A stretch of DNA of 64,000 nucleotides from Oceanisphaera pacifica (GTDB lineage Bacteria; Pseudomonadota; Gammaproteobacteria; Enterobacterales; Aeromonadaceae). The stretch is from assembly GCF_017498065.1 (NCBI RefSeq), contig NZ_JAGDFX010000004.1:124001-188000 (forward strand), written 5' to 3'. Shown here piece after piece: positions 10,549 through 63,088 of the stretch. Made by a program: the position numbers and the translations under genes. Position 1 is the stretch's first letter; the number at the start of each line of letters is the position of its first letter. The notes under the pieces are model-generated. The model was not told the DNA's origin. It was given only the letters and a program-made list of their open reading frames with translations, and searched no databases.

Positions 10549-12132
10549 ATGGAAATTGCTCGCCCCATTCGCCGTGCGCTACTGAGCGTATCTAACAAAG
10601 ACGGTATTGTTGACTTCGCACAAGGTCTACACGACCGTGGTGTTGAACTCCTATCTACCGGTGGCACCGCCCGCCTGTTAGCAGAACAAGGCTTACCTGT
10701 CACTGAAGTGTCTGATTATACCGGTTTTCCTGAGATGATGGATGGCCGCGTTAAAACCCTACACCCAAAAGTACACGGTGGTATTTTGGGCCGTCGCGGT
10801 ACAGATGATGCCATTATGGCCGAGCACGCCATCGCCCCCATCGATATGGTAGTGGTTAACCTATACCCTTTTGCTAATACCGTTGCCAATGCCGATTGCA
10901 GCCTCGAAGATGCGATCGAAAACATCGATATTGGCGGGCCAACTATGGTGCGTGCCGCTGCTAAAAACCACAATGATGTCGCCATTGTGGTGAATGCCAG
11001 CGACTACGACCGTCTACTTAGCGAAATGGATGCCGGCCATAATAGCCTCACTCAAGCCACTCGTTTTAGTTTGGCCATTGCCGCTTTTGAACACACAGCT
11101 CAGTACGACGGCATGATTGCCAACTACTTTGGCACCATGGTGCCGGCTTATCATGCAGCCGACGAACAATCGGCTTTCCCGCGCACCATTAATTATCAGT
11201 TCACTAAAAAGCAAGATTTACGCTATGGCGAAAACAGCCACCAAAGTGCCGCTTTTTATGTAGAGAACAACATTGATGAAGCCTCTGTAGCCACGGCTAC
11301 TCAGCTGCAAGGCAAGGCATTATCTTTTAATAACATCAATGACACTGATGCCGCATTAGAGTGTGTTAAAGAGTTTGATGGCCCCGCTTGTGTGATTGTA
11401 AAGCATGCCAACCCTTGTGGTGTGGCATTGGGCGAGAATTTGCTTGAAGCTTACGATCGTGCATTTAAAACCGACCCTACCTCCGCCTTTGGCGGCATTA
11501 TTGCCTTTAACCGTGAGCTAGATGAAGTGACGGCCAAGGCCATTGTTGAGCGCCAGTTTGTGGAAGTGATCATAGCGCCTAGCGTGTCTGAGGCGGCGAA
11601 AGCCGTGGTGGCTGAGAAGAAAAATCTCCGCTTGTTGGTCTCGGGCCAATGGACGAGCAAAACTCAAGGCCGTGATATTAAGCGGGTTAACGGTGGCATT
11701 TTAGTACAAGACCGTGATCAGGGCATGGTGGGGTTAGATGACTTGCAAGTAGTCAGTAAACGCCAGCCCACTGACGCTGAGCTACAAGACTTATTATTTT
11801 GCTGGAAAGTGGCCAAGTATGTTAAGTCTAACGCCATTGTGTATGCAAAAGATGCGCAAACCATTGGGGTGGGCGCCGGTCAAATGAGCCGTGTTTATTC
11901 AGCCAAAATTGCCGGTATTAAGGCGGCCGATGAGAATTTGCAGGTTGAAGGTTCTGTGATGGCTTCTGATGCATTTTTCCCGTTTCGTGACGGGATTGAT
12001 GCGGCGGCAGCAGCGGGCATTAGCTGTGTGATCCAGCCTGGTGGCTCTATGCGTGATGATGAAGTGATTAAGGCGGCGGATGAGCATGGCATGACCATGG
12101 TATTTACCGGCATGCGTCACTTTCGCCACTAA
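10549..12132 (+). CDS. purH: bifunctional AICAR transformylase / IMP cyclohydrolase
   Basis: PurH performs the last two steps of IMP synthesis: formylation of AICAR and ring closure. The 527-residue length is standard. The N-terminal MGS-like cyclohydrolase domain (1-150) shows L-L-S-V-S-N-K and L-S-T-G-G-T-A; the C-terminal transformylase has [10 protein letters not shown] with the catalytic Lys-His pair, and the end is Q-P-G-G-S-M-R-D-D. The gene is followed by purD as in many Gammaproteobacteria, but the spacer is a long inverted repeat and not the usual short gap. A strong hairpin lies in its leader (10475-10517). Confidence 0.97.
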
Positions 12133-12293
12133 TTATAAGCTAGAAGCTAAAGCACGAGCAGGACAGGCGCATCACACGCCAACACGCTAAACCGCATCCA
12201 TGCGGCGCTCAGCACATGACATCCCTGTCATGTGATGGTCGGCTTAGTGATTGCCCCTGCCCTGCTCTGCAAGCGGAATTTCTAGTTTATATC
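12133..12293. repeat. long imperfect inverted repeat filling the purH-purD spacer
   Basis: The left arm (about 12133-12180, including TATAAGCTAGAAG and GAGCAGGACAGGCGC) pairs imperfectly with the right arm (about 12241-12292, including GCCCCTGCCCTGCTC and TTTCTAGTTTATA). Inside lies a perfect 9-bp hairpin, CACATGACA tccc TGTCATGTG (12213-12234). The whole spacer can fold as one branched stem. This looks like a MITE- or BIME-like insertion inside an operon. Confidence 0.7.
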
Positions 12294-12325
12294 AGTTGCT
12301 TTATACATTTAGAGGAACAAGATTG

Positions 12326-13618
12326 ATGAAAGTATTAATCATAGGTGGTGGTGGCCGTGAGCATGCATTAGCGTGGAAAGCGGCGCAGTCGGCGGGTGTT
12401 AGTCAGGTGTTTGTCGCACCGGGTAATGCGGGCACCGAGCTTGAGTCTAACTTGACCAATGTGGACATTGCTGCCACCGATATTCAAGGCTTGTTAGCCT
12501 TTGCCAAGCAAGAGCAAATTGGCTTAACGATTGTTGGCCCAGAAGCACCATTGGTGGCGGGTGTGGTGGATGCCTTTGAAGCTGAGAGTTTGGCCATTTT
12601 TGGTCCCTCTGCGGCGGCGGCGCAATTGGAAGGTTCTAAGGCGTTTAGCAAAGACTTTTTGGCTCGCCAACAGATCCCCAGCGCTGAGTATCAAAACTTT
12701 ACCGAAGTAGAGCCCGCGATTGCCTATTTGCGCAAAAAAGGCGCACCTATTGTGGTTAAAGCCGATGGGTTAGCCGCAGGTAAAGGGGTGATTGTGGCCA
12801 TGACCTTGGCTGAGGCCGAAAGTGCGGTGCACGATATGTTGTCGGGTAATGCCTTTGGCGATGCGGGTAGCCGCGTGGTTATTGAAGACTTTTTAGAGGG
12901 TGAAGAAGCCTCCTTTATTGTGATGGTAGATGGCGAAAACGTGTTGCCGATGGCAACCAGTCAAGATCACAAGCGGGTGGGTGACGGTGATACCGGCCCT
13001 AACACTGGCGGCATGGGCGCTTATAGCCCAGCTCCTGTGGTTACGCCTGATATCCATAAGCGTATTATGGAGCAGGTGATTATGCCTACCGTGCGCGGCA
13101 TGGCAGCAGAAGGCCATGTTTATAAGGGCTTTTTGTATGCAGGCTTAATGATCGATAAGGCAGGACAGCCAAAGGTTATTGAGTTTAACTGTCGCTTTGG
13201 TGACCCAGAAACTCAGCCCATTTTGCTGCGTTTGCAGTCTGACTTGGTTGAGCTGTGTTTAGCGGGTTGTAACGGCGAGTTAGATAAAGTGACCGCCGAG
13301 TTTGACCCACGCGCCGCTGTGGGTGTGGTGTTGGCTGCCGGCGGCTACCCAGCTGACGGTTATCGCAAGTTTGATGCCATCACCAATATTCCGGCAGAAA
13401 CTGACATTAGCAAAACCTTTCATGCGGGCAGCACCATAAAAGATGGCACCTTAGTGACATCTGGTGGCCGTGTACTGTGCGCCACTGCATTAGGTAACAC
13501 GGTAACAGAGGCGCAAGCCAATGCGTACGCCGTCACTAAGCAAATTAATTGGCAAGGCGTGTTCTATCGCCACGATATTGCCTATCGTGCGATTGAGCGC
13601 GAGAATCAAGCCTCTTAA
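12326..13618 (+). CDS. purD: phosphoribosylamine-glycine ligase
   Basis: PurD ligates glycine to phosphoribosylamine with ATP in purine synthesis. The 430-residue protein starts M-K-V-L-I-I-G-G-G-G-R-E-H-A-L, the standard N-terminus, and has the ATP-grasp motifs P-I-V-V-K-A-D-G-L-A-A-G-K-G-V and E-F-N-C-R-F-G-D-P-E-T-Q. I use the ATG at 12326, preceded by AGAGGAAC; an open frame runs 25 codons further upstream but falls within the inverted repeat. A hairpin terminator at 13639-13666 ends the purHD unit. Confidence 0.97.
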   Translation: MKVLIIGGGGREHALAWKAAQSAGVSQVFVAPGNAGTELESNLTNVDIAATDIQGLLAFAKQEQIGLTIVGPEAPLVAGVVDAFEAESLAIFGPSAAAAQLEGSKAFSKDFLARQQIPSAEYQNFTEVEPAIAYLRKKGAPIVVKADGLAAGKGVIVAMTLAEAESAVHDMLSGNAFGDAGSRVVIEDFLEGEEASFIVMVDGENVLPMATSQDHKRVGDGDTGPNTGGMGAYSPAPVVTPDIHKRIMEQVIMPTVRGMAAEGHVYKGFLYAGLMIDKAGQPKVIEFNCRFGDPETQPILLRLQSDLVELCLAGCNGELDKVTAEFDPRAAVGVVLAAGGYPADGYRKFDAITNIPAETDISKTFHAGSTIKDGTLVTSGGRVLCATALGNTVTEAQANAYAVTKQINWQGVFYRHDIAYRAIERENQAS

Positions 13619-13638
13619 TTGATTGCTACAAATAATAA

Positions 13639-13666
13639 GCCGCCCGCTTTTGATGGCGGCTTTTTT
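13639..13666 (+). terminator. rho-independent terminator of purHD
   Basis: The stem is GCCGCC (13639-13644) with GGCGGC (13655-13660), a 10-nt loop and a following T6 run. It starts 21 nt after the purD stop. Confidence 0.9.
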
Positions 13667-13677
13667 GTTTGAGCACA

Positions 13678-13882
13678 AGCGCAAGGGGTGATGTCAATCA
13701 ACCAACAACTATCACAATACCTAAAGAGGTCGAATAAATTCGCCCCCACATTTTAGGCATCCAATGTAACAGACAGCGGGACGCCATACGCTTTACGCTG
13801 ACCGCTATACAAAAAGTCAAAACGTTTTATCTGTAAGGTATGGTTTTGCACTGATGTGTTGTAGGGTCGATTTCAATCGACC
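13678..13882. repeat. cluster of small repeat remnants downstream of purD
   Basis: The convergent spacer contains GGTCGAATAAATTCGCCCCC (from about 13727), a palindrome-like GGTCGATTTCAATCGACC (13865-13882), and ACGCTTTACGCTGACCGCTA, which resembles ACGCTAAGCGCTATACGCC near position 205. GTCGA-type stems of this sort are common intergenic repeats in Gammaproteobacteria. I see no gene here. Confidence 0.45.
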
Positions 13883-52151: not shown

Positions 52152-53618
52152 ATGCTCCTTTTTCATCTCGACCCTAATCTGAACGAAACCCTACAGCGTC
52201 AGTTACGCGAAAAAATAGCTAATGCTATTCTCGACGGGCAGATCCCATTGGATAAAGCACTACCTTCCAGTCGCAAACTCGCTAATGAATTAAACATTGC
52301 GCGCAACACAGTCGTTCTGGCCTATGAGCAGTTACTTGATGATGGCTATTTGATTGCAAAAAGTCGTAGTGGTTATTTCGTCAATGCTGATATTTTGCAA
52401 GGTCACGCTGAAAAACAAATACGACTTAACGATATTGATGCTAAGCCCACATCATGGGAAACACTATTAACAGTTCGCCCTTCTTTACAGCACAATATTC
52501 GCAAGCCCAAAGACTGGTACAATTACGATTACCCTTTTCTTTATGGGCAGCTTGATCCTGCATTATTTCCAACCCAGCACTGGCGCGAGTGCAGCCGAGA
52601 TTCAATGAATGTGCAGGCAATACGCAGTTGGTCAGTGGATCATTTTGATGAAGATGACCCCTTACTTATTGAACAGATCCGTACTCGGCTACTACCAAGA
52701 CGTGGGGTATGGGCCAAGCCAGAACAAATTCTAATTACCGTTGGCACCCAACAAGCACTGTGGATGATAGCTCAGCTATTACTCAAAGCAGACCGACGCT
52801 TTGCCATGGAAAACCCGGGTTATGTCGATATGTATAATATTGCAAGTCTGTTGACTGAAGATATTCAATTGCAGCCCGTGGACGACCAAGGAATGCAAAT
52901 TGATGATTCTTTGTCTGAATGCCAGCTTGTTTATGTCACACCCAGTCACCAAAGCCCAACGACGGTGACTATGCCGCTAGAACGTCGCAGGCAACTCTTG
53001 GATTTGTCAGAAAAAGACAACTTTTTGATCATTGAAGACGACTATAACAGCGAAATAAACTACGAAAGTAACCCCACCCCTGCACTTAAAAGCTTGGACC
53101 GTCATGAACGGGTGATTTATATAGGTAGTTTGTCCAAGACTCTCGCACCAGGGCTGCGACTAGGCTATATGGTGGCACATCCAAAATTGATCAATGAAGT
53201 CCGCGCAATACGACGACTCATGTTGCGTCATCCGCCGACGAATAATCAGCGTACACTGGCATTATTTATTGAGCGTGGATATCACGATGTATTATTACGA
53301 CAAATCCATCGTGCACTTAAACAACGGTGGGAGTGTATGAGTAAAGCACTGCAAACTCACCTGCCTCAGTTTAGTACGCATTCTAATATCGGAGGTACTA
53401 GTTTTTGGCTAAAAGCCCCAGCAGATCTCGATTTTCGTAAGCTGCAAGCCTTAGCTAGAAAGCAGAGTATCTTGATTGAATGTGGCGATATTCACCATTT
53501 TGATCGGTCATGTAATGAGCATTTGCGACTTGGTTTCTCTGCGATACAGACAGAAAAAATCGAGCCAGGCTTAAAGCTCTTGGCTCGATTAGTACCGCAG
53601 GCTATGCGTGAACGCTAA
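52152..53618 (+). CDS. tauR: MocR/GntR-family taurine regulator
   Basis: The 488-residue protein has an N-terminal GntR winged helix (1-70; S-S-R-K-L-A-N-E-L-N-I-A-R-N-T-V) and a C-terminal class I aminotransferase-like domain (from about 110) with the PLP Lys K329 in S-L-S-K-T-L-A-P-G-L-R-L-G-Y. This is the MocR layout; TauR of Rhodobacter is such a protein and activates taurine genes. It lies between tauK and tauY, divergent from the first and convergent (6-nt gap) with the second. The effector should be a PLP adduct, possibly with taurine. Confidence 0.82.
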   Translation: MLLFHLDPNLNETLQRQLREKIANAILDGQIPLDKALPSSRKLANELNIARNTVVLAYEQLLDDGYLIAKSRSGYFVNADILQGHAEKQIRLNDIDAKPTSWETLLTVRPSLQHNIRKPKDWYNYDYPFLYGQLDPALFPTQHWRECSRDSMNVQAIRSWSVDHFDEDDPLLIEQIRTRLLPRRGVWAKPEQILITVGTQQALWMIAQLLLKADRRFAMENPGYVDMYNIASLLTEDIQLQPVDDQGMQIDDSLSECQLVYVTPSHQSPTTVTMPLERRRQLLDLSEKDNFLIIEDDYNSEINYESNPTPALKSLDRHERVIYIGSLSKTLAPGLRLGYMVAHPKLINEVRAIRRLMLRHPPTNNQRTLALFIERGYHDVLLRQIHRALKQRWECMSKALQTHLPQFSTHSNIGGTSFWLKAPADLDFRKLQALARKQSILIECGDIHHFDRSCNEHLRLGFSAIQTEKIEPGLKLLARLVPQAMRER

Positions 53619-53624
53619 TTCAGC

Positions 53625-55070
53625 TTATGGTCGCTCATCTTTATGGCTATACCATCGATACAAAACACTCTGCCCCAAGCGGCGAAACGGTGCAAAGACC
53701 TGTGATTCGACCATTTCTTTCACATTAGGGAAGGGGAGTTTAGAGTTAAAAATAGGCATACTCATGTCTATTTTTTCACCTGCTATCAGCTGTGCTAAAC
53801 GTTTTCCAGCCTGTGCCGAATACATAACGCCGTTACCACCATAACCCAGTGCGTAATATACTGTTTCTCTCGGATCAGGTTGGAAAATTCGAGGCATCAT
53901 ATCGTGACTGACATCCACCCATCCCCACCACGAGTAGTCTATCTTTATCCCCTGCAGTAGCGGAAATTTGCGATACATGTCCCTGATCAGCATATTCTTA
54001 TACTTTTCTTGCGGAGCATCGCGACCGGTAATCGCGCTGCGACTGCCAATTTGCAATCGATTATCGGGGAGCAAACGATAGTAATGGCGCAAGATACGGG
54101 TATCAGTGATCACCTGTCGCGTGTGCATATTACAAGCTGCAACCTCTTCATCGGTCAGGGGCCGTGTCACAATAGAATTAGATAACACAGGCAGCAGACG
54201 ATTTTTTAACTGCGAGTGCAAACCTTGAGACGTATAACCGCCGGTTGCCATCCCCACTGAACGTGCTTTAACCACACCTCCAGGTGTAGTTAAATAATGT
54301 ACTCCACTGCGTGTTTCCCAACTTTGTACCGGACTAGCGGGATGAATTTTCACCCCTAAAGCCCGCGCTTTACGATGATAGCCAAAGGCCAGCTTGCCAG
54401 CATGAATACCGATCCCCTCAGGTTCGTGCATGGCACCAGCAGCTTCTTGATCACCAAACCAATCTCGTTTAACTTCCTCCGCTCCCATCATTTGCGCATC
54501 GTAATTGAAGGTTTCACGCAGCAGTTTTGCTTCTTTTTCCAAAACGGGCATTTGTCGATCACGATGCGCTATATATAGGTGCCCACCAGGTTGTGGATCA
54601 CAATCAATATCTTTGATCAAATCTTTAAACGTTGCCATGCCATCAAGACACTCTTGATGTAATTTATGTGCAATATCCAAACCATAACGGTCAATCCACT
54701 GTGAACGTTTTAACCGACCTGTTGCACACTGCGCCTGCCCACCGTTACGAGTAGAGCACCCCCAACTAGTACGATTCGCCTCCAATACCGTCGCTTTAAT
54801 ACCGTACTTTTCTGCTAAAAAAATAGCAGCAGTCAGCCCCGTAAAACCGGCGCCAACAATCACGACATCAGCGTCCATATCACCTTGCACCGGACCGTCA
54901 TCTGCAGGAGGTTCACCCGCAGTGCCAATCCAATAAGTTGGTGCATAGTCTCGCCCCTGCCCCGGAGTCTCGCTGGTCAGCGGATCGTAAGTGGGATCAT
55001 AAGACTTCAGCGGCGCGGTGCGCTGTTCAGTATCTACACCGGCTTGATTGTTCAAATCTACAGTTTCCAT
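53625..55070 (-). CDS. tauY: taurine dehydrogenase large subunit, FAD-dependent (TauY-like)
   Basis: The 481-residue protein is a DAO-family flavoenzyme. It has an unusual 65-residue N-terminal extension, then the FAD Rossmann motif V-V-I-V-G-A-G-F-T-G (GxGxxG at 73-78), the E-A-N-R-T-S-W-G-C-S-T-R-N-G-G-Q segment and A-L-G-Y-G-G-N-G-V-M near the end. Similar enzymes include gamma-glutamylputrescine oxidase, so a broader amine substrate is possible. TauY is chosen because of the tauX gene 44 nt upstream, tauR beside it, and xsc nearby. TauXY oxidises taurine to sulfoacetaldehyde and ammonium, passing electrons to a cytochrome. Confidence 0.78.
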   Translation of the reverse strand: METVDLNNQAGVDTEQRTAPLKSYDPTYDPLTSETPGQGRDYAPTYWIGTAGEPPADDGPVQGDMDADVVIVGAGFTGLTAAIFLAEKYGIKATVLEANRTSWGCSTRNGGQAQCATGRLKRSQWIDRYGLDIAHKLHQECLDGMATFKDLIKDIDCDPQPGGHLYIAHRDRQMPVLEKEAKLLRETFNYDAQMMGAEEVKRDWFGDQEAAGAMHEPEGIGIHAGKLAFGYHRKARALGVKIHPASPVQSWETRSGVHYLTTPGGVVKARSVGMATGGYTSQGLHSQLKNRLLPVLSNSIVTRPLTDEEVAACNMHTRQVITDTRILRHYYRLLPDNRLQIGSRSAITGRDAPQEKYKNMLIRDMYRKFPLLQGIKIDYSWWGWVDVSHDMMPRIFQPDPRETVYYALGYGGNGVMYSAQAGKRLAQLIAGEKIDMSMPIFNSKLPFPNVKEMVESQVFAPFRRLGQSVLYRWYSHKDERP

Positions 55071-55114: not shown

Positions 55115-55498
55115 TCAAGCGTTAACAGGCGGGCGATTCTTACGGAAAGCATTTTTAATGGCTATTTTTCCATCGCGAAATGTTAATACATCAATCATAC
55201 GAGCTTCGGTCCGCAGGCCGTCAGCTGTGGTCCCTTTATAGGTCGTTTCCATAAAGCCTTTATCACCAACCACATAGAATTCACCATCTACCCAACAGGC
55301 ATCCGGCGCATTTTTCCACGCATTAGAAAGGCCTTCACGTACCGCTGCAGGCCCTACAAAGCTGGTACCTTGTAATTCTTTACCGGCCACGCCATTAAAC
55401 ACGCAATCCTCGGTCATCATCTCTAATAACGCATCAATATCGTGACGGTTAAGTGCATCGCCAAAGGCTTGAAGAAAAGCAACAGTAGGTTGGCTCAT
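55115..55498 (-). CDS. tauX: taurine dehydrogenase small subunit, NTF2/SnoaL-like (TauX-like)
   Basis: The 127-residue protein has an NTF2/SnoaL-like cone fold: L-N-R-H-D-I-D-A-L-L-E-M-M-T-E-D-C-V-F near the start and a Y-K-G-T-T-A-D-G-L-R-T-E...D-V-L-T-F-R-D-G-K-I later. TauX of Rhodobacter and Paracoccus is, as I remember, of this small type. It is translated first, followed by tauY. ATG at 55498 is chosen for its GGAG, over an in-frame ATG four codons up. A single CTGGCACTAA, resembling the TauR box, is on the minus strand at 55594-55603. Confidence 0.75.
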   Translation of the reverse strand: MSQPTVAFLQAFGDALNRHDIDALLEMMTEDCVFNGVAGKELQGTSFVGPAAVREGLSNAWKNAPDACWVDGEFYVVGDKGFMETTYKGTTADGLRTEARMIDVLTFRDGKIAIKNAFRKNRPPVNA

Positions 55499-55779
55499 AA
55501 TTAACTCCATTTAAAATAATTGGGTAATAACTTTCTCGTCCCATGACGTGAAAATCGAGTACGAATAAGTCTACGCCACCGTTTTTTTATTCATTAGTGC
55601 CAGTTACAACACATTGTTTGGGCCAAAAAATAACAAACTGGCAACCAAGAGCAACAACCAATGCAACATCAGAAAACAAGCAAAAAGTGAAACATAACGT
55701 TCCACTTTGAACTATTATTCTGATAAGTTAAGCTGAAGTGATTAAAATATAACTTTGTACGCGTCCAAAGGAGCAACAC

Positions 55780-56763
55780 ATGACAGATTTGCTAGGTAGC
55801 CAGCAGCCCGACACCCTACGTTCGGTACGTGAGCTCTTCGGTATAGACAGTGACTTAGAGGTGCCAGCTTTCAGCGAGCGCAACGAGTATGTTCCTGATA
55901 TTGATGAGGCTTATCGCTTTAATCCAGACGTGACCCTGGCCATTCTTGCCGGTTTTACCCGTAATCGCAGAGTGATGATTCAAGGGCTACACGGCACGGG
56001 TAAATCTACTCATATAGAACAAGTCGCGGCGCGCTTAAACTGGCCTTGCTTGAGGGTCAATCTAGACGGACACATTAGTCGTCTTGATCTGGTTGGCAAA
56101 GATGCAATTGTGATCAGGGATGGCGTTCAGGTTACTGAGTTTCAAGAAGGCATTGTGCCTTGGTCACTGCAACGCCCAATTGCATTAATTTTTGACGAGT
56201 ACGATGCTGGCCGACCCGATGTAATGTTTGTTATACAACGTATTCTCGAGCGCGATGGCAACTTCTCCTTACTGGATCAAAACCGTGTCATTCAGCCACA
56301 CCCCCATTTTCGCTTATTCGCCACAGCGAACACCGTCGGTTTGGGCAATATGTCAGGTATGTACCAAGGAACTCAGGTGCTAAACCATGCCCAAATTGAC
56401 CGCTGGAATATTGTGGCGAAGCTGGATTATCTGAGCGCTAAAGAAGAAGCCGCGATCATATTGGCTCGGGTACCGGAGAAAAATACCGAACAAGGCCGCA
56501 AGCTGATTGATAGGATGGTGAGTGTGGCTGACTTAACACGTAAAGGCTTTGCCGCTGGCGATATTTCGACCCTAATGTCGCCTCGCACCGTGATTACTTG
56601 GGCCGAAAACTGTGAGATTTTCCGTGACTCTGCAGTGGCCTTTAGGCTGTCATTCTTAAATAAATGTGACGATGCCGAACGCCAAATTGTGGCCGAATAT
56701 TATCAACGCTGCTTTGATGAAGAATTAGACGAGTCTTGGTCTAAGGAGTCACTTAGTCTATGA
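55780..56763 (+). CDS. cobS: CobS-like AAA+ ATPase
   Basis: The 327-residue protein is highly like the CobS subunit of the aerobic cobaltochelatase: V-R-E-L-F-G-I-D-S-D-L-E-V-P-A-F-S at 16-32, Walker A G-L-H-G-T-G-K-S-T (69-77), Walker B A-L-I-F-D-E-Y-D (135-142) and M-S-P-R-T-V-I-T-W-A in the C-terminal part. CobS assembles with CobT as an AAA+/VWA chaperone for CobN. No cobN or other cobalamin gene is in the window; instead it overlaps (4 nt) the CobT-like gene and is followed by two Lin0512 genes. Function here is unknown and may concern a sulfonate enzyme. AAAGGAG precedes the ATG. Confidence 0.85.
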   Translation: MTDLLGSQQPDTLRSVRELFGIDSDLEVPAFSERNEYVPDIDEAYRFNPDVTLAILAGFTRNRRVMIQGLHGTGKSTHIEQVAARLNWPCLRVNLDGHISRLDLVGKDAIVIRDGVQVTEFQEGIVPWSLQRPIALIFDEYDAGRPDVMFVIQRILERDGNFSLLDQNRVIQPHPHFRLFATANTVGLGNMSGMYQGTQVLNHAQIDRWNIVAKLDYLSAKEEAAIILARVPEKNTEQGRKLIDRMVSVADLTRKGFAAGDISTLMSPRTVITWAENCEIFRDSAVAFRLSFLNKCDDAERQIVAEYYQRCFDEELDESWSKESLSL

Positions 56764-58496
56764 GCAACCTAGCCCAGCAACAGGCCCGCCGCCAGCAACG
56801 GGTTGAAGAGCTGTGCGCCGCCTCCATACGAGCCCTTAGTGGCAAACCCGATCTGCACTTTCGTGGCAAAGTGTTATATCAGGGCGAGCGCAGTCTCCCC
56901 ATGCACGCGCCTCATCACCGCATCGATACCGCCACCGCCTCTTTTACCGACTGCCGTGCCGCAGCAGACGGCATGGCCTTACGCTTGATGTACAGCAATG
57001 CTAAATTACATCAAATGCATTGCCCGCAAAAACCCATTGCACGGCTCGTGTTCGAGTTGCTAGAGCAATTGCGCGTTGAAGCATTAGTACCTGCACATCT
57101 CACCGGTATCGCCACTAACGTGGAAGAACGTTTTGTACGCTGGTCCCAAGATTTTCACCGCTCTGGCCACACCGAAAACAGCAGTGGTATTCTTTTATAT
57201 ACAGTCGCACAAATGTGTTGGTCACGGCTTAATGCCTGCCAAGTATTAGAGGAAACGGAAGATTTTATCGAAAGTACCCGCTTTTCGCTGGCTTCGTCAA
57301 TGGGAGCTTCGCTGTCGGGACTGCGCCGCACTCGACATCAACAAGCAGCATTTATTCCCCACGCGCTGGCAATAGCCGAGCTGGTGGACGGTATTATAGA
57401 AGCACAACGTGCTGAGCAGGACGCAGACGAAGACCAGGGTCAGGATCAAGACCAAGACGCCCAATCAAGCTTCGCTCTGCTATTAGACTTTGATCAAGAC
57501 GGTGACGACAGCGACGGCTTTGCCACTGCACGCAGTGGTGCCAGTAGAGCTTATGGCGAGAACCAACAGGGTTATCAGGTATATAGCAACGCTTACGACC
57601 GAGAAGTAAAAGCCAGTAATTTGGTACGCGCGGCGCAACTGGAAGAATATCGAGAACGCTTAGATAAAGGCATTAGCGAACAGGGGATAAATATCCAACG
57701 GCTAGCGCGCCAGCTTACAGCAACGCTGGCACGCCCCCAGTCTGATGGTTGGTCATATGGCGAGGAAGAGGGGCGCATTGATGGTAGACGCTTGGCGCAA
57801 CTGGTAAGCTCGCCGACTGAACGGCGTCTATTTTATCAGGAGCGTCAACGACCCGTGGCCGATTGCGTGGTCAGTATCTTGATTGACTGCTCAGGATCCA
57901 TGCGCCATCAAATTGAACCTATTGCCATGCTAGCTGATTGTCTGATCCGCGCCCTAGATATGATAGGAGCCAGCAGCGAGCTATTAGGGTTTACCACTAA
58001 TACTTGGAATGGCGGTAAACCGCATAAAGAGTGGATGCGACAAGGTCGCCCCCCCTACCCCGGCCGGCTTAATGAAACATGCCACCTGGTGTTTAAGGAA
58101 GCAAATTGTGGATGGCGTCGCTCTCGCCGTGATATTGCCGCCCTACTCAAAGGCGATCTGTTTCGTGAAGGAGTCGATGGCGAGGCACTAGATTGGGCCT
58201 GTAACCGTTTACTTACCTGCAGTGAAAATAGAAAAATTCTTATCGTTATTTCTGATGGCAGCCCAGCAGACAGTGCGACTAACCTAACCAACGACGCTTA
58301 TTATCTTGATAATCATTTAAAAGAAGTGCTCGCCCGCCGCGAACGGCAAAACGAAGTAGATATTTTTGGGCTAGGCGTAGGCCTAGATTTGAGTCCATTT
58401 TACCGTCACTGTCTAGCCACTGATATGTCACAAGCACTAGATAGTCATCTATTTGATGAAATCGTGCGCTTGATTGGCCACCAGAAGCGTCGTTAA
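56760..58496 (+). CDS. cobT: CobT-like VWA-domain protein
   Basis: The 578-residue protein has a CobT-type N-terminal region (1-215), a highly acidic linker rich in Asp, Glu and Gln (about 218-250), and a C-terminal VWA domain. The VWA metal site is intact: D376-C-S-G-S380 (DxSxS) with a later T (in G-F-T-T-N) and D (in I-S-D-G-S). The gene overlaps cobS by ATGA, so both are coupled. In cobaltochelatase CobT joins CobS in a ring complex and presents CobN. Without CobN, the complex must serve another target; adjacent candidates are the two Lin0512 proteins, TauXY and Xsc. Confidence 0.83.
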   Translation: MSNLAQQQARRQQRVEELCAASIRALSGKPDLHFRGKVLYQGERSLPMHAPHHRIDTATASFTDCRAAADGMALRLMYSNAKLHQMHCPQKPIARLVFELLEQLRVEALVPAHLTGIATNVEERFVRWSQDFHRSGHTENSSGILLYTVAQMCWSRLNACQVLEETEDFIESTRFSLASSMGASLSGLRRTRHQQAAFIPHALAIAELVDGIIEAQRAEQDADEDQGQDQDQDAQSSFALLLDFDQDGDDSDGFATARSGASRAYGENQQGYQVYSNAYDREVKASNLVRAAQLEEYRERLDKGISEQGINIQRLARQLTATLARPQSDGWSYGEEEGRIDGRRLAQLVSSPTERRLFYQERQRPVADCVVSILIDCSGSMRHQIEPIAMLADCLIRALDMIGASSELLGFTTNTWNGGKPHKEWMRQGRPPYPGRLNETCHLVFKEANCGWRRSRRDIAALLKGDLFREGVDGEALDWACNRLLTCSENRKILIVISDGSPADSATNLTNDAYYLDNHLKEVLARRERQNEVDIFGLGVGLDLSPFYRHCLATDMSQALDSHLFDEIVRLIGHQKRR

Positions 58497-58559
58497 CAAT
58501 CAGCTCTAGCTTATGCTTCATATAAAACAGTCACACTGACTTACTAGAGGAACCATATA

Positions 58560-58913
58560 ATGGCAAAAACTCGTTTAGTGCATCAATTTGGTATGGGAAC
58601 TTCCATTCGCAGCCTTGATTACACACAGGCCTGCGATCGGGCCATTCGCGATGCATTATGGCATAACTCCCTGAATGTCGCTGATGCGTTTGATTTTCCT
58701 CGTGACGCCATGTTGATTGACGTTGAGCTTGGCGTACAACAACCTGAACAAGTAGATACTCAGGCGCTATTGGGCATTTTTCCCTATGGCAGCCCCCAAA
58801 TATCAGTGACTAAAGGCGGGCTAGACATCGACAAGCCCGACGGCAGTGGCACCTGCGTAATCGCTAATGCTGCGGTTATTGTTTCCTTCGATATGGAGCC
58901 CAATCATGACTGA
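58560..58913 (+). CDS. Lin0512-family protein, first copy
   Basis: The 117-residue protein matches the Lin0512 family of unknown function: an N-terminal strand ending F-G-M-G, then Y-T-Q-A-C-D-R-A-I-R-D-A-L-W-H-N-S-L, and a C-terminal D-G-S-G-T-C-V-I-A-N-A-A-V-I-V. Residues about 50-80 (I-D-V-E-L-G-V-Q-Q-P-E-Q-V-D) are also shared with the next gene. No signal peptide or membrane segment. The gene lies 63 nt after cobT and overlaps the second copy by 8 nt. The tandem pair likely forms a heteromer. AGAGGAACC precedes the ATG. Confidence 0.8.
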   Translation: MAKTRLVHQFGMGTSIRSLDYTQACDRAIRDALWHNSLNVADAFDFPRDAMLIDVELGVQQPEQVDTQALLGIFPYGSPQISVTKGGLDIDKPDGSGTCVIANAAVIVSFDMEPNHD

Positions 58914-59283
58914 ACAACGCATAATTTTAGAAATGGGAAGTGGTAATTCGCTGTACCGAGAAGACTATACTGAAGCCGCTTGTCGTGCGGTACAAGACGC
59001 CTTACGCCACTCATCAATTGTGCTTTTTAAATCATTGGGCTACGAACACAGTCAAATGCGAGTGCAAGTCACCATTGGCGTGCAACGCCCCGATCAAGTA
59101 AATTGCGCCACCGTTGCCGCTACCCTGCCCCGTGGCCGTGCTGAAGTCACCGCGGTACACGGGGGTCTGAATGTTCATGACCCTGATAACAACAATACCC
59201 ATGTTATTGCCAACGCAGCGGTCGCCGCATTTTTGCCGATTAAAGCGGGTGCATGGAAACTATCGCCATCCAATAGCGAATAA
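58906..59283 (+). CDS. Lin0512-family protein, second copy
   Basis: The 125-residue protein is a paralogue of the preceding one: E-M-G-S-G replaces F-G-M-G, then D-Y-T-E-A-A-C-R-A-V-Q-D-A-L-R-H-S-S-I, V-T-I-G-V-Q-R-P-D-Q-V-N and N-T-H-V-I-A-N-A-A-V-A. It has a C-terminal tail of about 12 extra residues. The start is the ATG at 58906 inside the end of copy one; the open frame extends 13 codons upstream but overlaps more. Coupled translation suggests equal dosage. Function unknown. Confidence 0.8.
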   Translation: MTEQRIILEMGSGNSLYREDYTEAACRAVQDALRHSSIVLFKSLGYEHSQMRVQVTIGVQRPDQVNCATVAATLPRGRAEVTAVHGGLNVHDPDNNNTHVIANAAVAAFLPIKAGAWKLSPSNSE

Positions 59284-59373: not shown

Positions 59374-60135
59374 TCAGCTAAATAAGCCCGCAACAATCAG
59401 TGATACGCCAATCAGCATCAATACAAAAAATACCAAACGCAACATTGTTTGTGCAGAAAATGGCGGTGGCCAATGCCTTCCTACCCAAGTTGCCATTGCT
59501 ATGATAGGGACAGTCCAAGCCGTGAGCGTTAGGATTTCAATATTCATTTGCCCCTGCCCCACTACGAATAGCGTTCGTACCCCAGATGAGACAGCAAACA
59601 ACAGAATTAAGGTCGTTCTAATACGAATAAGATCTAATGGTTGACGGTAGTAATGATAAATAAGTGGCGGCCCTGCAATACCGAACAAGCCTCCCAAAAA
59701 ACCCGACAAGCCACCAAACCACACAAAACTGATGCGACTGGCGACTTGTTGCTGAAGGCTAGGTTTAAGTAATAGCCCCGCGGCGGCATATACAATCACT
59801 AATCCCAGCAGGGCTTTCACGATATTTGCAGCACTACCACTCAGATAATTTAGCAATAGCACCCCAACGGTAATAGTAGGAATAATACCCAGTGCAACCA
59901 TGCCTACTGATGGCCAATGGACATAATGCAAGCGCCCAGGTAACGCAACCATACAATTAATCAGTGTCATGATACTGACCACGGCAGCAACCGATGTCAT
60001 TGGAGCAATGGCTAACCCACCCGCGAGCCCCATCACTATCATCCCTAAACCAAAACCGGTCACGGTCTGAAAGTACCCAGCAACGCCTGCAATAATTAGA
60101 AATAACCAAGGCGCTTCAATAATGAAGTTTATCAA
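59374..60135 (-). CDS. tauE: TauE/SafE-family sulfite exporter
   Basis: The 253-residue protein has about 7-8 membrane helices and the TauE/SafE (DUF81) two-repeat pattern: G-F-G-L-G-M-I-V-M-G in the first half and G-F-L-G-G-L-F-G-I-A-G-P-P in the second. In Cupriavidus TauE exports sulfite formed by Xsc. Here it is next to xsc, transcribed in the same direction, but a terminator at 60209-60228 separates them. The only fitting start is a TTG (60135), nine nt after GGAG. It ends close to, and convergent with, the second Lin0512 gene. Confidence 0.85.
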   Translation of the reverse strand: MINFIIEAPWLFLIIAGVAGYFQTVTGFGLGMIVMGLAGGLAIAPMTSVAAVVSIMTLINCMVALPGRLHYVHWPSVGMVALGIIPTITVGVLLLNYLSGSAANIVKALLGLVIVYAAAGLLLKPSLQQQVASRISFVWFGGLSGFLGGLFGIAGPPLIYHYYRQPLDLIRIRTTLILLFAVSSGVRTLFVVGQGQMNIEILTLTAWTVPIIAMATWVGRHWPPPFSAQTMLRLVFFVLMLIGVSLIVAGLFS

Positions 60136-60261: not shown

Positions 60262-62097
60262 TTATACATAGTCTTGATATTTTTCAAGCAAGCGAACGGG
60301 TTTCTTCAGTGCGTCACGGCGGAACGGGTCACCTAGCTCACGCGTACACATCACTTCGATAATGGTCGTCTTACCTTCGTTCATCTGCATGCTAACGGCT
60401 TTTTTCAGTGCGGTTCCCACATCTTCCAAGCGGTCAACAGTGATACCTTCTGCACCCATAGCGCGTGCAATTTCAGCAAAGCTCTGGTTGTCTAATTCAC
60501 CGGCGACAAAACGACGGTTATAAAATTCAACCTGGTTCTTCTTCTCTGCACCCCATTGGCGGTTATGGAACACAACCACTGTGACTGGAATATCATGACG
60601 TACAGCTGTCATTGTTTCCATTAAACTCATGCCCCAAGCACCGTCACCGGTATAAGCAATCGCTGGGCGCTCAGGGGCAGCGACTTTAGCTCCCATAATC
60701 GTTGGGAAGGCATAACCACAGTTACCAAAGCTCATTGGTGCAAAGAAGCTGCGTGGTTTTTCAAAACGCAGGTAGCTATGAGCGACAGCGTTAATGTTAC
60801 CGATGTCAGTAGACACCATCACATCTTCTGGCATTGCTTTTTCAAGCTCACGCAACACTTGGCGTGGGTGCAAATAAGAGCCGCCAGAGAAAGGAGTCTC
60901 ATCCTTTGCTTCTTCAATAGCATCAAGGCTGAATGCGTCGGTTTCGTGCGTCCACTCATCTAACTCTTTCTCCCAAGCTGCCTTCTCGTTAGCAATAAGA
61001 TCGGCACGTTCACTACGGCTCGCATCACACACCAGCTCGCGCTCAGCCAGACGTTCAGTTAGCGCTAGTGCTGCGTCTTTCGCATCCCCACAAATACCGA
61101 CAGCAATCTTTTTCACTAGACCAAGCATCTTATTATCGGCATCAATTTGGATGATTTTTGCATCTTTCGGCCAATAATCCATGCCATGCTGCGGTAAGGT
61201 ACCAAAAGGCCCAAGACGAGTACCTAAGGCTAAAACGACATCGGCCTTAGCCATCAATTTCATACCAGCCTTAGAGCCTTGGTAGCCTAGAGGTCCAGCC
61301 CACAATGGATGGCTAGCGGGGAAAGAATCATTATGTTGATAACTATTCACTACTGGAGCACCCAAACGCTCAGCTAATGCCTTACATTCTTCTACACCAT
61401 CAGCCATAACAACGCCACCACCGGATATAATAACCGGGAACTTAGCGTTAGCTAATAGCTCTGCCGCCTCATTCAAACTTTTAGCACCGCCAGGACCGCG
61501 ATCTAAGCGTGCAGGCCGAGGAATTTCAGCTTCAATTTCACCATAGAAATAATCACGAGGAATATTAAGCTGAGTAGGCCCTATCTCTGACATTGCACGG
61601 TCAAAACAACGACCTGTATATTCAGCCATCCGCGATGGATGAGTCACGTGACCTTGATATTTAACGAACTCTTGGAACATTGGCAGTTGGTTACACTCTT
61701 GGAATCCCCCTAAGCCAATGCCTGTTGTTCCTGTTTCTGGCGTGATGATAACGACAGGGCTGTGCGCCCAAAAAGCTGCAGCAACACCGGTTACACTGTT
61801 AGATACACCAGGTCCATTTTGACCAATAAGAACACCGTGACGGCCAGATACGCGAGCATAACCATCGGCCATGTGTGCCGACCCTTGCTCATGTACCACC
61901 GGAATCAAGCGAATACCGGCTGGAGCGAAAATATCCATCGCATCCATAAAAGCCGAGCCCATGATACCGAACATGTCGGTCACGCCATTAGCCACCAGCG
62001 TTTCTACAAACGCCTCAGAAGGTGTCATTTTTTTCATGCCTTCAACAACTTGGCGCGTATCTGTTTCTTGACGGATTTCTGTATTGTTAGTGCTCAT
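60262..62097 (-). CDS. xsc: sulfoacetaldehyde acetyltransferase
   Basis: Xsc is the TPP enzyme that converts sulfoacetaldehyde and phosphate to acetyl phosphate and sulfite. The 611-residue protein has the TPP Glu E70 in V-V-H-E-Q-G-S-A-H-M-A-D-G-Y, a central acetolactate synthase-like domain, and G484-D-G-A-W-G-M-S with the distal N-R-Q-W-G-A-E-K-K-N-Q-V-E-F-Y-N-R-R-F. The last stretch is diagnostic of Xsc. ATG at 62097 follows GGAG; the frame extends 10 codons up without a ribosome site. It is divergent from the IclR gene, its likely regulator. Confidence 0.95.
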   Translation of the reverse strand: MSTNNTEIRQETDTRQVVEGMKKMTPSEAFVETLVANGVTDMFGIMGSAFMDAMDIFAPAGIRLIPVVHEQGSAHMADGYARVSGRHGVLIGQNGPGVSNSVTGVAAAFWAHSPVVIITPETGTTGIGLGGFQECNQLPMFQEFVKYQGHVTHPSRMAEYTGRCFDRAMSEIGPTQLNIPRDYFYGEIEAEIPRPARLDRGPGGAKSLNEAAELLANAKFPVIISGGGVVMADGVEECKALAERLGAPVVNSYQHNDSFPASHPLWAGPLGYQGSKAGMKLMAKADVVLALGTRLGPFGTLPQHGMDYWPKDAKIIQIDADNKMLGLVKKIAVGICGDAKDAALALTERLAERELVCDASRSERADLIANEKAAWEKELDEWTHETDAFSLDAIEEAKDETPFSGGSYLHPRQVLRELEKAMPEDVMVSTDIGNINAVAHSYLRFEKPRSFFAPMSFGNCGYAFPTIMGAKVAAPERPAIAYTGDGAWGMSLMETMTAVRHDIPVTVVVFHNRQWGAEKKNQVEFYNRRFVAGELDNQSFAEIARAMGAEGITVDRLEDVGTALKKAVSMQMNEGKTTIIEVMCTRELGDPFRRDALKKPVRLLEKYQDYV

Positions 62098-62232
62098 GAG
62101 TTTTCTCCAGGGTAGCCTCAAAGCCAATCGGTCTAAGTTTCACTTTTCGATTAATTTCATCCCTAAAATCGGAACGCGATTCAAAGTTAACCTTATCCAA
62201 ACCTAACGTCAACATAGATTTCACAATTTAAT

Positions 62233-62246
62233 ACAAATTGATTTGT
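62233..62246. promoter_or_regulatory. putative IclR-type operator between xsc and its regulator
   Basis: ACAAATTGATTTGT is a 14-bp near-perfect palindrome located 45 bp before the iclR-type gene and 136 bp before xsc. IclR proteins usually bind short palindromes in such divergent spacers. The assignment is by position only. Confidence 0.4.
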
Positions 62247-62290
62247 TTTTTGAAATAAAACATAATCATTATGACAAAGAGGATGACACT

Positions 62291-63088
62291 ATGATCAACA
62301 CTAAAGCTGGCAAACACCGCCTAGAAGGCGGCACTCCTACCCAGCGCCTGCTTGCGCTATTAGAAGTAATATCTGAAAAAGATCAATTTGTTACACTACA
62401 AGGACTAGTAGAAGAAACCGGTATCCCTAAACCAACGCTGCACCGCATGCTGCAGCAATTAGAAAGCTCCGGCATGTTACAGCGAGAGGCTGATGGGCGG
62501 CACTACAGCCGTGGTGCACGCTTACGCCGACTGGCAGAAAACCTACTATTGAACGATACCGTAGGCGGAGCACGGCATGCCATTCTGGCCTCGCTAGGGG
62601 AAGAAATAGGCGAAAGCTGTAATATCACTGCACTGTCTGGTGGTGAGGTATTGTATTTGGATCGCGTTGAGACACCCGCCCCACTGCGTTTTTATTTGCA
62701 GCCTGGTTCACGCGTGCCCGTACACTGTTCTGCCAGTGGTAAGCTGTTTCTAGCCCAAATGGCGCCAGCACAACGCAAACGCTTGCTTGCTGATATGCCA
62801 TTGAAGAAATTTACTCATAACACACTCACTGATTTTAACGCGCTTGAGGTGGAGATTGAGACGGTAAAACAGCAAGGCTATGCGTTTGACGACGAAGAGT
62901 TTTTGCCTGGGTTGCTATGTATTGCGGTATTGGCCTCTAACCCGAGCGGTGTGTCCAATATAGGGGTGGCTATGCAGGCTCCAATAATGAGAGTAACACG
63001 CGAGCAAGCCCTTTCATTTCTGCCCGCTTTACAACGCGCAGCCGACGCCATTGCAACCATCTGCCAAAATGGCTCAGCCACGAGTTAG
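62291..63088 (+). CDS. IclR-family transcriptional regulator
   Basis: The 265-residue protein has an N-terminal winged helix (T-P-T-Q-R-L-L-A-L-L-E-V-I, then G-I-P-K-P-T-L-H-R-M-L-Q-Q-L) and a GAF-like effector domain (about 95-260; V-L-Y-L-D-R-V-E, V-P-V-H-C-S-A-S-G-K-L-F-L-A). It probably regulates xsc, from which it is divergently transcribed. This locus thus has two regulators, MocR-type TauR and this one. ATG at 62291 follows AGAGGATG; a TTG 16 codons earlier opens the frame but is unlikely. Confidence 0.9.
   Translation: MINTKAGKHRLEGGTPTQRLLALLEVISEKDQFVTLQGLVEETGIPKPTLHRMLQQLESSGMLQREADGRHYSRGARLRRLAENLLLNDTVGGARHAILASLGEEIGESCNITALSGGEVLYLDRVETPAPLRFYLQPGSRVPVHCSASGKLFLAQMAPAQRKRLLADMPLKKFTHNTLTDFNALEVEIETVKQQGYAFDDEEFLPGLLCIAVLASNPSGVSNIGVAMQAPIMRVTREQALSFLPALQRAADAIATICQNGSATS

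Follow-up and report, generated by a model that had tools for sequence, protein, structure and literature searches.

The window analysed here is a 64,000-nucleotide stretch of DNA from Oceanisphaera pacifica, whose genome (G000) comprises 37 contigs and is listed as 100% complete. A block of four genes at positions 55780-59283 encodes a CobS-like ATPase, a CobT-like protein and two Lin0512 proteins, and the Pfam and NCBIfam assignments place tauX- and tauY-like genes to its left and tauE and xsc to its right. We designated the first two proteins CobS-II and CobT-II (together CobST-II). The features of the locus are as follows:

52152..53618, + strand: MocR-type regulator, TauR candidate (PF00392 and PF00155; NF052282, 374.5 bits, cut-off 320)
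53625..55070, - strand: TauY-like FAD oxidoreductase (PF01266, 197.3 bits)
55115..55510, - strand: TauX-like SnoaL/NTF2 protein (PF12680, 68.7 bits)
55780..56763, + strand: CobS-II, CobS-like AAA+ ATPase of the Xsc-linked type (PF12556 and PF07728, CobS_N and AAA_5)
56760..58496, + strand: CobT-II, CobT-like VWA protein of the Xsc-linked type (PF06213 and PF11775, CobT and CobT_C)
58560..58913, + strand: Lin0512 protein, subtype A of the pair, optional accessory (PF09585, 105.3 bits; alignment)
58906..59283, + strand: Lin0512 protein, subtype B of the pair, optional accessory (PF09585, 114.1 bits; model and fold match)
59374..60135, - strand: TauE-like sulfite exporter (PF01925, 75.3 bits)
60262..62127, - strand: Xsc, sulfoacetaldehyde acetyltransferase of clade A, proposed client (TIGR03457, 1054.5 bits; tree; co-occurrence)
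62243..63088, + strand: IclR-type regulator (PF01614 and PF09339)

The ORF coordinates agreed with the preliminary description of four rightward genes, with a 4-nt overlap between cobS and cobT, a 63-nt gap before the first Lin0512 gene and an 8-nt overlap between the two Lin0512 genes. For the second of these we adopted the start at 58906, while the mechanical ORF list gives 58867. The Xsc score lies well above the TIGR03457 cut-off of 676.4, and the true start of this protein is probably the ATG at 62097. The cobS and tauXY genes point away from each other across a 269-bp spacer. We take the TauX-like and TauY-like proteins to be the small and large subunits of taurine dehydrogenase, and the MocR-type regulator presumably has the role of TauR. 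Such a role for a MocR-type regulator also appears in PMC5320631.

Both Lin0512 proteins far exceeded the PF09585 cut-off of 23.4 bits, and the match to TIGR02058 (51.4 bits) fell just under its cut-off of 56.85. The predicted fold of the second protein resembles PDB 3c8l, a member of the Lin0512 family; the window differs from that known case in having a subtype A/B pair behind cobST-II. Other matches of the Lin0512 fold were FtsZ C-terminal-domain-like and, more weakly, RidA/chorismate-mutase-like, and these model-based matches are uninformative for function. A plasmid search with the second protein returned no match.

CobS-II and CobT-II compared with cobaltochelatase subunits

The best NCBIfam match of CobS-II was CobS (TIGR01650) with 517.9 bits, under the cut-off of 558.55, and that of CobT-II was CobT (TIGR01651) with 300.8 bits, far under the cut-off of 759.05; hence the two proteins are relatives rather than typical members of these families. 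Mean identity to the canonical proteins was 64% for CobS-II and 29% for CobT-II. Among PDB structures CobS-II matched CobS with 467.7 bits and the best CbbQ with 37 bits, so CbbQ/NorQ are not its closest relatives. In the CobT tree, from which 41 of 138 rows had been left out as double fetches or near-duplicates, CobT-II formed its own branch with support of 100 against 22 canonical CobT, a separation that the preliminary description had named as a check. The CobT proteins of four further genomes with xsc (G153, G273, G353 and G249; 312-363 bits) were considered as candidates and rejected, falling on the canonical side of the tree; no Xsc stood beside these CobT genes in the locus pieces read.

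The ATPase and metal sites are intact, as had been read from the sequence (D376-x-S378-x-S380 and Walker A/B). The MIDAS of CobT-II is complete (D376, S378, S380, T413 and D499), with all five residues kept in 100/100 CobT-II rows of an alignment that includes near-duplicates, and the Walker A Lys and Walker B Asp-Glu of CobS-II were kept in 97/97 CobS rows. These rows, like the 90 loci described below, include close relatives and are not independent. CobST-II shares with CobNST its intact Walker and MIDAS residues and its domain architecture (CobS_N and AAA; CobT N-domain and VWA), but differs in the separate CobT-II clade, in scores under the NCBIfam cut-offs for both proteins, and in lying with xsc instead of cob genes.

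The absence of CobN from the window extends to the whole genome, which gave no PF02514 match; CbiC, the only cobalamin step searched besides CobN, gave no PF02570 match there either. That CobST-II is still a cobaltochelatase motor acting with CobN or another large subunit is hardly credible, and for the window genome it is contradicted. Homology speaks for it, through the CobS identity and PDB match given above, as do PF02514 matches in 5/11 CobT-II genomes; however, the other 6/11, the window genome included, had none. Of those matches, one is BchH (G488), one adjoins a TonB receptor (G600), and one was judged by Pfam alone (G202); a score over the CobN cut-off was demonstrated for G582 and G517 only. 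The CobN of G517 has a ChlI-type ATPase beside it, and no comparable neighbour emerged for that of G582. The distinct CobT clade, the CobN-less genomes and the different partner in sulfonate breakdown uphold the earlier suggestion that this pair was recruited away from CobN. Where records name CobST-II-type genes they are labelled "cobalt chelatase", a label that misleads predictions of vitamin B12 makers.

Co-occurrence of CobST-II with Xsc

Xsc breaks a carbon-sulfur bond and catalyses a central step in the breakdown of taurine, isethionate and sulfoacetate to sulfite. In 50 full loci, each read with 9 kb of flank at either end, Xsc was present in 45 (median gap 1.3 kb), an IclR relative also in 45 and TauY in 36 (median gap 5.0 kb), and Pta genes were frequent neighbours too. 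Across the wider set of 90 loci an Xsc piece was present in 76. Seven of the remaining 14 genomes carry Xsc elsewhere (1055-1083 bits), all inside clade A, and the other seven gave no Xsc match at E 1e-100; the contigs of these seven end beside cobST and may hide it. Same-strand, operon-like units without tauXY nearby also occur, with the orders xsc-cobS-cobT (L061 and L070), xsc-ackA-cobS-cobT (L066) and xsc-pta-like-cobS-cobT-Lin0512 (L153). The idea of a taurine-only locus did not hold, as one locus adjoins the sulfoacetate gene sauS. The window-type arrangement recurs in many genera, which is far beyond chance; Halomonas elongata (L038) is one species that carries the complete set.

Two even draws of 369 and 260 genomes, in which xsc was found in 51 genomes, gave the same picture. 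All CobT-II genomes carried clade-A Xsc, 5/5 in the larger draw and 7/7 in the smaller, or 11/11 when pooled with one genome common to both. Conversely, CobT-II occurred in 11/14 genomes with clade-A Xsc vs 0/37 with other Xsc, one of the 37 being a partial match (Fisher 7.6e-9, a value that ignores kinship), and in none of the sampled genomes without xsc. CobST-II is not always needed, since three genomes (G102, G242 and G566) and a Rhodococcus plasmid, over the 26 kb read, have clade-A xsc and no CobT-II or cobST, respectively. In G323, G107 and G582 xsc and cobST are both kept though on separate contigs or distant.

The Xsc tree was built from 100 of 123 distinct rows after 23 near-duplicates had been removed by hand; the partial Xsc of G120 was excluded, and the five full-length proteins of L016-L019 and L136 and the Xsc of the seven genomes with xsc away from the locus were included. 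Clade A, with branch support of 100, comprised 66 Xsc from cobST-II genomes and 4 from genomes without, and the 30 other Xsc fell outside it. The cobST label required 4 changes on this tree vs 28.4 when shuffled, and an earlier 86-row tree gave the same result. The constant partner of CobST-II is one clade of Xsc, neither TauXY nor Lin0512.

An acidic linker loop is present in clade A, with E410 in 74/74 rows, and is missing from 25/25 rows of the nearer Xsc. The clade-A C-terminus recurs in 2/25 other Xsc, and the four rows that lack cobST retain both loop and C-terminus, which speaks against a link of these features to CobST-II. Inside clade A, an acid at position 405 tracked cobST most strongly (67/70 rows with cobST, 1/4 without) and position 615 less so, both being weak, post hoc signals among 621 columns. 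A few conservative changes at other positions of Xsc also track cobST inside the clade. A mirror-tree test on pairwise distances among CobT, CobS, Xsc, TauY and Pta over 27 loci did not single out Xsc (0.61 for CobT-Xsc, 0.60 for CobT-TauY and 0.77 for CobT-Pta). As a further point against a dedicated Xsc motor, an Xsc of the clade-A kind from Alcaligenes defragrans was reportedly purified active with added thiamine diphosphate and Mg2+.

Of the clients or adaptors that the preliminary description had offered, Xsc is the one favoured by the genomes. Lin0512 was rejected as a core or defining part, being present in 10/50 full loci and absent from 40/50; it also occurs with ordinary CobT in genomes from a different class within this phylum, beside cobN in 2/14 such loci fetched. 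Taurine dehydrogenase TauXY as the client, with the motor loading or activating its FAD or metal and Xsc linked only indirectly through the shared pathway, strikes us as improbable. The divergent cobS-tauXY arrangement in the window and the frequency of TauY favour it, as do four full loci with TauY and no Xsc in the piece read, yet the genomes of these four carry clade-A Xsc outside that piece. TauXY is further set back by 3/11 CobT-II genomes in which TauY was not found at E 1e-60, and by genomes without CobT-II that have TauY together with other Xsc (G516, G661 and G562) or with clade-A Xsc (G102, G242 and G566).

Proposed function of CobST-II

We judge it fairly probable that CobST-II is an AAA+/VWA remodelling machine dedicated to clade-A Xsc, with reactivation as its likeliest action, and that it probably keeps this enzyme working in many sulfonate-degrading bacteria. 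Like MoxR-type pairs, it is encoded and co-inherited with one enzyme (clade-A Xsc, 11/11), and from the genomes we infer that Xsc is its physical client. CobS-II would form the ATPase ring, and CobT-II would dock onto Xsc through its VWA metal site, probably via an acidic residue. ATP hydrolysis would then open the active site, and the motor would eject dead cofactor or dead-end adducts, as CbbQO does sugar phosphates from Rubisco. Such products are expected to accumulate because Xsc makes sulfite beside thiamine diphosphate and sulfite degrades thiamine (PMC11206890). The precedent is CbbQO, an AAA+/VWA Rubisco activase according to PMC5385338 and PMC5437159. Both systems set AAA+ and VWA genes beside one metabolic enzyme, and reactivation is proposed for CobST-II as well; in contrast to CbbQO, CobS-II belongs to the CobS lineage and the proposed client is a thiamine enzyme.

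Cofactor ejection is our hypothesis, in preference to loading or assembly. A one-time action of CobST-II on clade-A Xsc, by insertion of thiamine diphosphate/Mg2+ or by tetramer assembly, seems unlikely to us, though all the co-occurrence evidence fits it equally well. It would resemble NirQ-NorD (NirQ/NorQ-NorD), an AAA+/VWA pair without a sulfonate link that is needed to make its client, nitric oxide reductase, functional and is a precedent for maturation (PMC5437159). The clade-A lineages without CobST-II (G102/G242 and G566) fit repair better than obligatory maturation, if weakly. Sulfonate genes cluster and move together, and genes for Pta and IclR often lie nearby as well, so CobST-II might only hitch-hike in a sulfonate gene island with no functional tie to Xsc. 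This is very improbable: it leaves the 0/37 in genomes with other Xsc unexplained, and both genes persist where they lie apart, as in G323, G107 and G582 and in 7/14 genomes without xsc at the locus.

Returning to reactivation, a more detailed version is offered tentatively, as a possible rather than a probable reading. CobST-II would be the first AAA+ activase that acts on a thiamine-diphosphate enzyme and would repeatedly clear sulfite-broken cofactor; clade-A Xsc would be recognised through its acidic loop (near E405/E410) and the C-terminal tail KYxDYV, with Lin0512 as an optional, general helper of CobST-type motors. If true, this extends the principle of Rubisco activase to thiamine enzymes, and if Xsc needs an ATP-driven caretaker, sulfonate breakdown has a hidden cost and a control point. 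A likely client of CobST-II is now named.

A literature search, which misses most subscription journals, returned no paper on a CobST-Xsc link among the matches listed, and none on Lin0512, on CobS and CobT without CobN, or on taurine, cobT and xsc together. In PMC4334477 the terms stand apart and unconnected. Sulfoacetaldehyde and cobaltochelatase do share a methanogen paper.

The four-gene set and its motor

Open reading frames and Pfam matches confirmed the four-gene set as first described: a CobS-like ATPase (CobS_N and AAA_5), a CobT-like VWA protein (CobT and CobT_C) and two Lin0512 proteins. The best NCBIfam matches were the CobS and CobT models, both under their curated cut-offs and, for CobT, far under (300.8 bits, cut-off 759.05). 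Divergent tauXY-like genes lie on the left flank, while the right flank carries convergent tauE and xsc, the latter encoding sulfoacetaldehyde acetyltransferase, with an IclR gene further out. Neither a CobN-family protein nor CbiC was found in this genome, which is listed as 100% complete.

Seven plasmid matches to the window's CobT were 46-54% identical and spanned 95-97% of the protein, and the next plasmid matches, canonical CobT included, reached 36-39% over about half of the length. In a tree of 97 CobT proteins, built by a quick search with long branches flagged, 74 proteins of the new type (CobT-II) and an outlier from genome G107 stood opposite 22 canonical CobT with a support of 100. 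All 100 CobT-II rows retained the metal site (D376, S378, S380, T413, D499), and all 97 CobS-II rows retained the Walker A lysine together with the Walker B Asp-Glu, so the motor should be functional as predicted from these residues. The G107 pair (L154:9071-14120) is very divergent, its CobT being 31% identical, and lies downstream of a pta-like gene and a dddP gene (665.2 bits, cut-off 600), with xsc on a separate contig. Another CobT-II match (G283:C1:3274679-3276325) was reported with one internal TGA, yet a 605-aa open frame was given.

Association of CobST-II with one clade of Xsc

We annotated 90 loci by similarity, all retrieved via CobT: the 80 best from a species-genome scan and 10 from plasmids and the window's genus. 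Among the 50 full loci (9 kb either side), Xsc was present in 45, TauY in 36 and at least one of the two in 49, together with an IclR relative in 45 and a Lin0512 pair in 10. The median gap to cobST was shorter for Xsc (1.3 kb) than for TauY (5.0 kb). The sole full locus with neither, L074, carries sauS (717.5 bits, cut-off 600), whose product is an acylating sulfoacetaldehyde dehydrogenase, and the same genome has Xsc outside the locus (1060 bits); the common point is thus sulfoacetaldehyde, the substrate of Xsc, whichever compound supplies it. In the gammaproteobacterial loci L061 and L070, xsc lies immediately upstream of cobS-cobT on the same strand, with no tauXY in the piece read; two others show the orders xsc-ackA-cobST (L066) and xsc, pta-like, cobST, Lin0512 (L153). 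The Xsc piece was missing in 14/90 loci: seven of these genomes have Xsc elsewhere (1055-1083 bits, all within the clade A defined below), and the other seven gave no Xsc at E 1e-100, their contigs breaking off about half a kilobase or less from cobST, which may hide an Xsc gene.

Two or more Xsc pieces at over 70% identity were present in 15/90 loci, often flanking cobST on both sides (L013, L023, L024, L028, L031, L032, L036, L037, L040, L069, L075, L079, L080, L084, L085). The pieces are sometimes identical, as in L028, and in L036 at least they look like a single gene split up. In Caballeronia, a CobW-type GTPase gene on the opposite strand (L010:11627-12595) overlaps the end of cobT-II, and a relative of it was found in 9/50 full loci.

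Because these loci had been retrieved through CobT, genomes were additionally drawn evenly. In a class draw of 369 genomes, CobT-II (at least 406 bits; next match 363) was found in 5 and xsc in 22, and in a one-order draw of 260 genomes, CobT-II (at least 522 bits; next match 311) was found in 7 and xsc in 30; all CobT-II genomes carried xsc (5/5 and 7/7). With both draws pooled, CobT-II occurred in 11 of the 14 genomes whose Xsc scored at least 1021 bits and in none of the 37 at 980 bits or less, one of them a partial match under the cut-off (Fisher 7.6e-9, uncorrected for kinship). In a tree of 100 Xsc proteins, 66 from cobST genomes and 4 from genomes without cobST formed one side (clade A, support 100), and the 30 others fell outside. 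The cobST label needed 4 changes on this tree versus 28.4 in shuffles; a single gain with three losses would suffice, and Rhodococcus, known from a plasmid stretch only, is among these losses. Identity to the window's Xsc was 76-98% within clade A and 61-71% or 45-48% in other rows; records from Sinorhizobium, Paracoccus and Cereibacter carry the 45-48% kind.

Alternative partners and the wider range of Lin0512

The preliminary description held that the module had been recruited to a client other than CobN, and this is borne out; of its proposed clients or adaptors, Xsc stands as the probable partner, narrowed to one clade, and TauXY does not hold as a rule. TauY was missing in 3/11 CobT-II genomes, and some genomes that have other Xsc but no CobT-II do carry it. 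CobN was likewise rejected as a constant partner, with no PF02514 match in 6/11 CobT-II genomes. The remaining five matches comprise a BchH (G488), a protein adjoining a TonB receptor (G600), one tested by Pfam only (G202) and two true CobN (G582 and G517), that of G517 being adjoined by a ChlI-type ATPase and CobW. CobN-family proteins adjoin TonB-dependent receptors at L267:2219-8184 and L270:4239-10940, and such proteins make PF02514 a poor marker of cobalamin synthesis.

Lin0512, the third candidate, was found in 4/61 genomes (that of the window plus 60 relatives), all four within the genus, and in 19/319 genomes of the phylum. CobT was present in 18 of these 19 (exception G434) versus 15/61 numbered genomes of the same phylum draw without a Lin0512 match (p 4e-8, families unbalanced). 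Lin0512 adjoins cobN in 2/14 loci retrieved from that draw, both from another class of the window's phylum:
L232:7599-15394, Lin0512 beside cobQ and cobW-cobN
L234:8898-15283, Lin0512 beside cobO and cobN
Given its company with CobT and these cobN-adjacent loci, Lin0512 seems to have a broader link with CobST-type motors than with taurine, and at L232 and L234 it is possibly an unrecognised helper of cobaltochelatase. Its predicted structure (pLDDT 88) matches 3c8l, a structure without assigned function.

Possible action on Xsc

CobST-II is homologous to CobST and is predicted, by analogy, to work like the Rubisco activase pair CbbQO, yet it should be classed with neither; in the search results and passages covered, no paper joining CobST to Xsc was found. 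According to passages of two papers (PMC5385338, PMC5437159), MoxR-type AAA+/VWA pairs act on enzymes whose genes adjoin theirs, and the metal site of CbbO interacts with Asp82 in the large subunit of Rubisco, a subunit whose final two residues are required for reactivation. Compared with nearer Xsc, clade-A Xsc has an acidic stretch in the linker preceding the last domain (E410 in 74/74 versus 0/25; numbering of the 621-aa ORF), modelled as a helix end and loop (pLDDT about 72-73), and the C-terminal end KYxDYV (exact in 62/70 clade-A rows versus 2/25). Both are also kept in the four clade-A rows without cobST and are thus only candidate features. An acid at position 405 (67/70 rows with cobST versus 1/4 without) is a post hoc hint.

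Xsc produces sulfite next to its own thiamine cofactor. Metabisulfite breaks down thiamine, according to a passage of PMC11206890. Hypothetically, the sulfite made by Xsc would harm the adjacent cofactor, and the enzyme would need care; alternatively, CobST-II may load the thiamine cofactor or assemble the Xsc enzyme. On the Rhodococcus plasmid pDK3 (L203:124-1117 and 11974-13782), a clade-A xsc occurs with a phosphotransacetylase gene, and thiazole synthase and thiS genes lie about 11 kb from xsc, with no cobST within the 26 kb read; this arrangement fits a link to thiamine supply, or chance.
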